Below are positions 9,220-12,200 of a stretch of 36,572 nucleotides of DNA, piece by piece. Both the position numbers and the translations under genes were made by a program. The stretch comes from Oceanicaulis sp. Lineage in GTDB: Bacteria; Pseudomonadota; Alphaproteobacteria; Caulobacterales; Maricaulaceae. The stretch is from contig JAIUMW010000006.1 in NCBI GenBank assembly GCA_022565365.1, forward strand, positions 1-36,572. Direction: 5' to 3'. How positions within the stretch are numbered: position 1 is the stretch's first letter; every line of letters starts with the position of its first letter. The notes beneath the pieces are model-generated. The model saw only the letters and a list, made by a program, of their open reading frames with translations. It made no database searches and was not told where the DNA came from.

Positions 9220-9510
9220 TCAGGCGTGGGCGAACAGATCGCCCTGCGGCGCGGCCGGAACAGGGCCGCGCGGCGTGCGCGTCAAGGTGCGCGCGGGCGG
9301 CGGCGCGACGACTGTTTCCGTATTGGAGAGTGTCAGGCCCAGTTCGCCCGCCTTGGCGCGGATCGCGCTGTCAGGACGGCCAAGGCGCAGGCTGATCAGG
9401 CGCACCGGCGCGCCCTCGCGCGCCAGCGTGCGCAGCCTGGCGAGATCCTCACCGCGCCAGCGCGTGCCGGCATTGCGGGAGTAACCGTTGGAATGAGGGG
9501 CGTAGCGCAT
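9220..9510 (-). CDS. Small SOS-controlled protein: Myb/SANT-like domain plus clamp-binding motif
   Basis: This 96-residue protein is not one I can name. Residues about 16-61 (TRWRGEDLARLRTLAREG and then LISLRLGRPDSAIRAKAGEL) form a three-helix pattern. It has the Trp and the LGR-xSAIRxKA recognition-helix signature of Myb/SANT- or GcrA-like DNA-binding domains. Residues 62-87 are a Pro/Thr/Arg-rich, probably flexible linker. The C-terminus is QGDLFAHA; Q89-G-D-L-F93 fits the beta-sliding-clamp binding consensus Q-x-[SD]-L-F. The ATG at 9510 has a strong AAGGAG 8-13 nt upstream and sits about 17 nt after the predicted transcription start, so the longer open frame to 9549 is unlikely. Two perfect LexA boxes cover the promoter. 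polA follows after 113 bp. Inference: a damage-induced factor recruited to the replisome. Confidence 0.8.
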   Translation of the reverse strand: MRYAPHSNGYSRNAGTRWRGEDLARLRTLAREGAPVRLISLRLGRPDSAIRAKAGELGLTLSNTETVVAPPPARTLTRTPRGPVPAAPQGDLFAHA

Positions 9511-9532
9511 GGTTCTGCTCCTTCTTGAAGCA

Positions 9533-9581
9533 GAACGTAGGCGGAACATCGCCCTTTGTCAAGGATGTTCCTTTAATGTTC
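9533..9581 (-). promoter_or_regulatory. SOS promoter with two LexA boxes
   Basis: On the minus strand, TTGACA (9562-9557) is followed after 17 nt by TACGTT (9539-9534). Two perfect GTTC-N7-GTTC boxes, the alphaproteobacterial LexA operator, flank or overlap it. One is GTTCCGCCTACGTTC (minus strand, 9547-9533), covering the spacer and -10. The other is GTTCCTTTAATGTTC (plus strand, 9567-9581), ending 5 bp upstream of the -35. Predicted transcription starts near 9527 and runs into the 96-residue gene. Confidence 0.8.
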
Positions 9582-10732: not shown

Positions 10733-11611
10733 TTAGCGTCTTGCGGCTTCATAGGCGAGCATGGCGCGCTTTCGCTCAATACCCCAGTGATAGCCGGTCA
10801 GCCGCCCGTCGCCCGCCAGCACGCGGTGACACGGGATCAGCCAGCTCACAGGGTTCGCCCCCACCGCCGCGCCCACGGCCCGGCTGGCGCGGTCGCTGCA
10901 TACCTCGCGCGCAATATCGCCATAGCTCACCGTGCAGCCCGGCGGAATGCGCAGGAGGGCGCGCCAGACCTGACGGCGCCAGGGCGTGCCATAGAGCGCC
11001 AGAGGCAGGGCCGCCTCGCCGGCGCGCGCATCGAAAATCCGCCCCGCCCAGTCTGCGGCCAGCGCGTCGTCTCGCTCGAACCGCGCGCCGGGATAGCGCG
11101 CCGTCAGATCGGCAAGCGCGTCATCGGTTCTGTCTGGCGCCGCGAAGGCCAGCGCCGAGAGGCCGCGCGGCGCGATGAGAAACACGCCTGTCCCGAACGG
11201 CGTCAGCGCCTCGCCCCAGCGAAAATCGATGCCGGTCCCGCCCGCTTTCGCCTCGCCCGGTGTCACGGCTTCCTCGGCGATGAACACGTCATGCAGGCGC
11301 GAGGGACCGGACAGGCCGGTCTCAAGCGCCGCGTCCAGCACGCTCGCCCCGTCCACCAGCAGGCGCCGGGCGCTGGCATGGGTCAGCGCCTGGACAAAGC
11401 GTTTGGGGCTCGCCCCGGTCCAGCGGGTGAAGACGCGCTGGAAATGGCTGGGCGACAGGCCGGCCGCCGCGGCGGCGGCGTTCAGGTCGGGCTGGTCGCG
11501 CCAGTGGGCGCTCAGGAAATCCAGCGCGGCGACAATGCGCGGATAATCGCGGGCGCGCTCGTCCAGCGGGGCGGGGGCGTCTGCGCGGGAGAGGGCTTGG
11601 GAATCGCTCAT
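10733..11611 (-). CDS. ada: AraC-type regulator fused to O6-methylguanine-DNA methyltransferase (Ada-like)
   Basis: The protein of about 292 residues combines an AraC-type DNA-binding half (AAAAAGLSPSHFQRVFTRW, TGASPKRFVQALTHASARRLL) with a methyltransferase half. The latter carries GTPWRRQVWRALLRIPPG, YGDIAREV, RAVGAAVGANPVSWLIPCHRVLAGDG and the alkyl-accepting Cys261 in PCHR. It repairs O6-alkylguanine by irreversible transfer to that Cys. The N-terminal zinc/Cys domain of E. coli Ada, which accepts methyl from phosphotriesters and switches on transcription, is absent. The ATG at 11611 is used; an in-frame GTG at 11647 would overlap the upstream gene by 20 bp. Neither has a clear ribosome site. 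Confidence 0.9.
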   Translation of the reverse strand: MSDSQALSRADAPAPLDERARDYPRIVAALDFLSAHWRDQPDLNAAAAAAGLSPSHFQRVFTRWTGASPKRFVQALTHASARRLLVDGASVLDAALETGLSGPSRLHDVFIAEEAVTPGEAKAGGTGIDFRWGEALTPFGTGVFLIAPRGLSALAFAAPDRTDDALADLTARYPGARFERDDALAADWAGRIFDARAGEAALPLALYGTPWRRQVWRALLRIPPGCTVSYGDIAREVCSDRASRAVGAAVGANPVSWLIPCHRVLAGDGRLTGYHWGIERKRAMLAYEAARR

Positions 11612-11627
11612 GGCGGCAAACTGCCCG

Positions 11628-12200
11628 TCAGGCGAGGGCGCCGCCACCTGATTCTTGCGCGGATGGACCGGCGTCAGACCGCCGCGCTTTATCCAGCGCC
11701 TCCCCCACGGCGGCGGCGAGGCTTTCGCGCTCTTTGGGCGACAGCATCGCCCCGATGATCAGCGTCTTGCCCATGGCGGTCAGCTGGGCCTGCACATCGG
11801 GTTCGCCCGTCCCGGCCAGCGCGACGCGCGTCCAGGCGCTGGGCAGGCGGAACCAGGTCTGATGGCCGGTGGGATAGCGCCGCCCGACGCGGATTTCACG
11901 GCGCGTGATCTCGATGGTCTCCAGCCGCCGCCCGTCCCGGTAGGAGATGCGGAAGGCCAGCCAGACCAGCAGCACGTCCAGCCCGAAAAAGCCCAGCACC
12001 GGCCAGGCGCCCGCCATCATGAAGGCGATCCCGGCGGTGAAGCTGACCAGCGCAATGGCGCCCATCAGCACATAGAAGCCGGTATTGGGCAAAGAGCGGT
12101 TGGGCCGCACCTCGGCGTTGAACACAACAGGATCGTCACCGGCCAAGGGCGGCGGTGCGGCCTCGGCAGGCCAGGTTTCGTACATCGGGCGGCGTTCCAT
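11628..12200 (-). CDS. DUF2244 family membrane protein
   Basis: The product (about 190 residues) carries the DUF2244 signature: VVFNAEVRPNRSLPNTGFYVLM, two closely spaced membrane segments (GAIALVSFTAGIAFMMAGAW and GFFGLDVLLVWLAF) and ISYRDGRRLETIEITRREI. A soluble C-terminal domain of about 90 residues follows. The molecular role of the family is unknown; it is common in alphaproteobacteria. ATG at 12200 or 12185 are both possible; neither has a strong ribosome site, and 12185 has a GGAA about 11 nt upstream. The ada-like gene follows after 16 bp. The stretch of about 200 bp to lolA on the other strand must contain the divergent promoters. Confidence 0.8.
   Translation of the reverse strand: MERRPMYETWPAEAAPPPLAGDDPVVFNAEVRPNRSLPNTGFYVLMGAIALVSFTAGIAFMMAGAWPVLGFFGLDVLLVWLAFRISYRDGRRLETIEITRREIRVGRRYPTGHQTWFRLPSAWTRVALAGTGEPDVQAQLTAMGKTLIIGAMLSPKERESLAAAVGEALDKARRSDAGPSAQESGGGALA

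Follow-up and report, generated by a model that had tools for sequence, protein, structure and literature searches.

The window, by which we mean the whole 36,572-nucleotide stretch of Oceanicaulis DNA that was analyzed, carries on its reverse strand a gene for a 96-residue protein (positions 9220 to 9510, stop codon included). A ribosome-binding site, AAGGAG, can be read at 9518 to 9523 on the same strand, 5′ of the ATG at 9510, and both this start codon and the reading frame are common to the homologs of the gene. A longer ORF of 109 residues, the start of which falls inside the region of the LexA box described below, is not its likely form. The source genome is a draft in 419 contigs with 4.5% contamination.

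The first-pass annotation had divided the protein into a helical domain at residues 16 to 61, a linker and a QGDLF sequence at residues 89 to 93, a layout that was confirmed by the translation and by an AlphaFold2 model. The domain, which is of a three-helix GcrA/Myb-like type according to the model, a structural match and the PHROG 323 profile, is encoded at 9328 to 9465. The Pro- and Arg-rich linker (residues 62 to 88; 9247 to 9327) was delimited from the model and from an alignment of homologs, in which it varies in both sequence and length, and the same alignment singled out QGDLF (9232 to 9246) as a putative beta-clamp binding pentapeptide; all three features are on the reverse strand. 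The protein terminates in ...APQGDLFAHA, with three residues beyond the pentapeptide. It matched no Pfam or NCBIfam family. DinB, ImuB and UmuC are, as a class, damage-induced and clamp-binding; unlike them, the protein is only 96 residues long, and scans with Pfam and NCBIfam found no polymerase or Y-family domain in it.

Profile searches yielded 23 full-length homologs, the window's own included, distributed over four genera of one family with one locus each. They include sequences from an Alphaproteobacteria MAG, an Oceanicaulis MAG and Alkalicaulis satelles (Maricaulaceae in the NCBI taxonomy). In the search of the family, 25 of 137 genomes matched, 23 of them with a full-length gene and two (G034 and G083) with the helical domain alone; one genome (G064) gave an additional, second match that was also restricted to the helices. 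Two members (L032 and L036) were counted as full-length since the stop listed for them is the gene's own end and their ORFs are intact. Up to 36, 16 and 13 first-look candidates were scored per genome in the searches of the family, the order and the class, respectively, and weak members may therefore have escaped.

A LexA-type box over the promoter

Parsing of the upstream region located a −35 element, TTGACA (9557 to 9562), separated by 17 bases from a −10 element, TACGTT (9534 to 9539), both on the reverse strand. The −10 element lies inside a perfect GTTC-N7-GTTC box, GTTCCGCCTACGTTC (9533 to 9547, reverse strand), identified by a motif scan and by comparison of the homologs. The motif scan also found a second LexA-type box farther upstream and in the opposite orientation (9567 to 9581, forward strand). 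A generic promoter scan, which required at least 4 matching bases of 6 per hexamer and 9 of 12 over the pair, listed no promoter at the gene. In all 23 homologs a box is present 35 to 41 bases 5′ of the ATG and covers the −10 element, and 22 of the 23 have a −35 element of the TTGAC type with a spacer of 17 or 18 bases. The upstream box, GAACN7GAAC, was found within 140 bases in 11 of the 23.

GTTC-N7-GTTC is described as the LexA site of Alphaproteobacteria in PMC3323433, PMC8565304 and PMC12700426. The window contains two GTTCN7GTTC sites, compared with an average of 0.49 in shuffled sequences, 11 of 100 of which had at least two. Genome-wide, the exact box matched 63 times and the reversed control pattern 50 times, so that most of the matches are probably due to chance; some of them adjoin AT-rich, possibly foreign, genes. 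The argument for LexA thus rests on the position and the conservation of the box, not on the abundance of the motif. We read 58 stretches around the box matches of this genome, naming genes only where Pfam gave a match, and found the box, in either orientation, in front of recA, lexA, ssb, a ComM-like Mg-chelatase gene and a radical SAM gene. With GTTC-N7-GTTC in the promoter of all 23 homologs, as at recA, lexA and ssb, the gene has the operator of a LexA-regulon member. From these sequence features, it is almost certainly repressed by LexA and would be induced by DNA damage, and the proposal of LexA control made at first pass stands at the sequence level.

Other boxes of the same genome deserve mention in their own right. 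The Mg-chelatase gene behind a LexA-type box (L139, G000:C130) is of the ComM/YifB type, which in other bacteria is associated with natural transformation. At another locus (L119, G000:C24:6066-9743), one and the same LexA-type site occurs twice, at 1001 and 2664, about 1.66 kb apart and each time with the same 14 bases on its left; one copy precedes a 333-residue ORF and the other a radical SAM gene, as if a promoter had been duplicated together with an inserted gene. An ORF near a further box (L128) gave no match in a Pfam scan and is, we assume, ImuA-like, and what we take to be the start of a UvrA-like gene lies near yet another (L142).

The helical domain and its relation to GcrA

The AlphaFold2 model, built from 22 sequences, contains helices at residues 20 to 32, 36 to 43 and 47 to 57, with a mean pLDDT of 88 to 91 over residues 21 to 60, and shows the linker and the tail without helix and at low confidence. 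The best structural match found with VIA-align was the DNA-binding domain of GcrA (5yiv), with an rmsd of 0.9 over 44 residues, 30% identity and a Z score of 7.2, which lies in the middling range by that tool's own note; spliceosomal, transposase and Myb chains ranked just behind. Foldseek gave no match with an E value below 0.001. Profile matches in solved structures were to 2lvs, the title of which is CRISPR repeat binding protein (E = 1.2e-7), and to the GcrA chain of 7ye1 (E = 0.00075). All 23 members matched PHROG 323 (transcriptional regulator, D5-like), and some matched Pfam models weakly, four of the 23 that of GcrA (best E = 0.0089) and three that of Myb; the protein of the window matched neither. 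The model and the structural matches, at a middling Z score, point to a three-helix fold of the Myb/SANT-like or GcrA-like kind, which supports the fold class of the DNA-binding-like domain first assigned.

The three-helix domain is shared with GcrA (PF07750; 5yiv and 5yiu), a cell-cycle regulator of Alphaproteobacteria. The 96-residue protein does not reach the Pfam cut-off for PF07750, however, and it lacks the C-terminal part of GcrA, which interacts with sigma. In its place the alignment shows just the variable linker and the QxxLF end, and the gene has a LexA box. The protein thus has a GcrA-like fold but is not a GcrA. Two of the proteins compared (L057 and L058) are presumably genuine GcrAs and have a long C-terminal part containing Cys and His residues.

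The helical domain probably binds DNA, and the net charge of the proteins, +8 to +14 in all 23 members, is consistent with such a function. Folds of this type can instead serve protein contacts. The proximity to the DNA-binding domain of GcrA, the closest fold, together with the PHROG 323 matches throughout the family and the scattered Pfam matches, would also suit a damage-induced transcription regulator whose GcrA-like domain recognizes specific promoters while the tail does no more than keep it near the replisome or contact some other partner. We consider this unlikely, because the long C-terminal part of GcrA-type proteins is missing and because the Q, L and F that never change in the tail match the clamp consensus QL(S/D)LF, as given in PMC9690074.

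The conserved C-terminal tail

A Q-x-[DE]-L-F sequence close to the C terminus is present in all 23 full-length homologs and is followed by no residue in one member, by one residue in eight and by three in 14. It occurs as QGDLF, QMDLF, QPDLF or QLELF, with Asp at the third position in 12 members and Glu in 11. The Q, L and F residues are invariant although their codons vary: Gln is encoded by CAG in 20 members and by CAA in three, Phe by TTC in 19 and by TTT in four, and Leu by four different codons. The helical domain and the motif have mean pairwise identities of 0.72 and 0.76, respectively, against 0.30 for the linker, none of whose 39 columns is invariant, and 0.27 for the residues past the motif. 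The motif was also kept in all ten representatives sharing less than 70% identity. A conserved tail on a drifting linker had been set beforehand as the test of the motif, and it is what the alignment revealed.

The first-pass annotation had cautioned that so short a motif might have arisen by chance. The composition of five ORFs of the window predicts a Q-x-[SDE]-L-F followed by zero to five residues in about 1.1e-4 of proteins, or 0.33 per 3000 proteins, and a single copy of the tail is therefore weak evidence. The conservation of the tail in 23 of 23 homologs is thus the main evidence that the motif is real. A chance match, which such random occurrence of short motifs might have suggested, is already contradicted by a tail that persists in the whole family through synonymous turnover while the linker drifts, and its probability is practically negligible. 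That selection acts on the tail is well supported by these alignments.

What the selected tail binds can be approached by comparison. The clamp consensus is QL(S/D)LF at the C terminus, and much wider variability may be tolerated, according to PMC9690074. The 23-member family has a conserved peptide of this Q-x-[SD]-L-F type in a flexible, terminal position, with Glu in place of Ser or Asp in 11 members as a mild departure from the consensus. A regular-expression search found QASLF in a DnaE fragment of the same genome (L167), 240 residues before the C terminus; it detected nothing of the kind among the Y-family ORFs at 12 loci, so that one protein provides the whole in-lineage yardstick. The MutS protein of Caulobacter, according to PMC8034640, depends on a C-terminal clamp motif for its replisome foci. 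On the strength of sequence likeness and conservation, the tail is likely to bind the beta clamp.

The conserved end might alternatively be a tag for protein degradation. Short-lived proteins are common in the SOS response, and four of the 23 members have AA as their last two residues, past the motif. Nine of the 23 stop at the F or one residue past it, however, without alanine, and identity past the F falls to 0.27 while Q, L and F do not vary, which makes a degradation tag hardly credible.

Fifteen of the 23 members have an RTL-x-R element in the linker (residues 74 to 78 of the window's protein), and the other eight lack it. This element could be a second contact site.

Range, genomic neighborhood and proposed role

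The searches beyond the family gave matches in 12 further genomes of 299 for the order and in 12 further genomes of 385 for the class, and all of these were matches to the helical domain only. The Q-x-[DE]-L-F end was absent from the 21 of these 24 matches that were read (10 of 12 for the order and 11 of 12 for the class); the three left out of this reading (G295, G358 and G645) end at positions 63, 74 and 75 of the 99-position profile. Some of the outside matches are, we presume, GcrA-type proteins. When viral contigs were scanned once with the alignment of the 23 members, to probe a phage origin, no relative was found. The protein had initially been taken for a general player in Alphaproteobacteria, a view that has to be given up, as full-length members were found in four genera of one family only. 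With 23 genomes in four genera, the family is therefore not needed for the SOS response in general.

Six of the helix-only matches in other Alphaproteobacteria (L041, L042, L043, L051, L052 and L063) are small proteins (...NTPTRVIGLKLGRTE...NQSPYNRR) that combine the helical domain with a conserved end of the SPY type. Of three such proteins scanned against Pfam, one gave a weak match below the cut-off and the others none. They share the helical domain with the 96-residue family by profile match but, unlike it, have neither the linker nor the Q-x-[DE]-L-F end. Among 16 helix-only genes, two had a GTTCN7GTTC within 200 bases upstream (L042 at −94 and L052 at −69), in both cases elsewhere than the box of the 96-residue family and not over a TTGAC/TATGTT promoter. 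A box match near a helix-domain gene is thus not special by itself.

A promoter pattern with 10 bases between TTGAC and GTTC, which misses the gene of the window with its TACGTT as the −10 element, matched in 10 of 372 genomes of the class sample, and the control pattern had none among the matches listed. In the loci read outside the family, no ORF of 30 to 250 residues with its start within 165 bases of a box ended in Q-x-[SDEP]-L-F. This is a thin test, and it leaves room for a second, independent small protein with a clamp tail driven by LexA.

Of the other 22 genomes with the gene, we read its surroundings in 14, and the downstream side in 10 loci. A glyoxalase-like gene (VOC by Pfam) is the nearest upstream neighbor in 13 of the 14, within about 0.7 kb. 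Farther upstream lies an ORF, at 10733 to 11647 on the reverse strand of the window, that we take to encode an Ada/Ogt-like alkyltransferase and that is syntenic in 12 of the 14, so that two genes with a possible link to DNA damage are less than 2.5 kb apart. Downstream, on the other strand, are what we take to be dapB and dnaJ in seven of the 10 loci. In the loci examined, the gene had no repair or polymerase gene as a conserved partner next to it, and it therefore stands alone with its own promoter.

In the window, the next gene downstream is polA, which has the same orientation and starts after a gap of about 110 bases; no terminator-like site was detected in this gap, which decides nothing. 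An operon with polA is ruled out as the general arrangement, since polA directly follows the gene in only two of the 14 further loci. The close spacing in the window would be expected of an adaptor for DNA polymerase I; with other genes in this place elsewhere, such a role is very improbable.

We propose the following course of events for a LexA-controlled clamp ligand. In an undamaged cell, LexA would be bound to the box that covers the −10 element, keeping the gene off. Damage would lead to cleavage of LexA and to synthesis of the small basic protein, the Q-x-[DE]-L-F tail of which would dock in the peptide pocket of DnaN, the beta sliding clamp, that DnaE and other polymerases use. The GcrA/Myb-like domain, tethered by the flexible linker, would hold DNA beside the clamp. 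Where forks are damaged, the access of polymerases to the clamp would in consequence be slowed or rearranged, which would make the protein a brake or an exchange factor. For the reading as a whole, in which a LexA-repressed clamp ligand competes with or manages polymerases at damaged forks and keeps hold of DNA by its helical domain, we see about an even chance. Its last element taken separately, the braking or exchange of polymerases at the fork, is put forward tentatively.

Occupation of the clamp pocket might instead make the protein a growth inhibitor that halts elongation as a checkpoint. SocB, the clamp toxin of Caulobacter crescentus, blocks elongation through a clamp-binding motif in the clamp pocket, as described in PMC9690074 and PMC12795458, and the DnaN peptide pocket that SocB occupies according to the former is the site proposed here for the Q-x-[DE]-L-F tail. 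An induced small protein with a tail of strong consensus could act alike. SocB, compared here by description only, is part of a toxin-antitoxin pair, whereas the 96-residue protein has a helical domain of the DNA-binding type and its gene a LexA box. No antitoxin-like small partner gene was noticed in the loci read, a weak point against the inhibitor because the downstream side was read for ORFs of at least 90 residues. We judge inhibition of this type quite unlikely.

Returning to the LexA-controlled clamp ligand, we found no published description of the protein in the open-access literature, which was the scope of the search and mostly excluded subscription papers. SOS proteins that bind the clamp are known already, and so are small inhibitors of it; what is new is a LexA-box-driven protein in which a GcrA-like domain is combined with a putative clamp tail. 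A bolder and rather doubtful version is that this lineage joined the two under LexA to obtain a damage-induced clamp rider that reads the DNA behind the fork and directs the traffic of polymerase exchange, being neither a polymerase nor a repair enzyme nor a toxin.

If the tail does bind the clamp, the SOS response of this family would include a dedicated small protein governing access to the clamp. Polymerase exchange at damaged forks could then be tested with a single protein of 96 residues, and QGDLF, QMDLF, QPDLF and QLELF would be gained as natural clamp-binding peptides.
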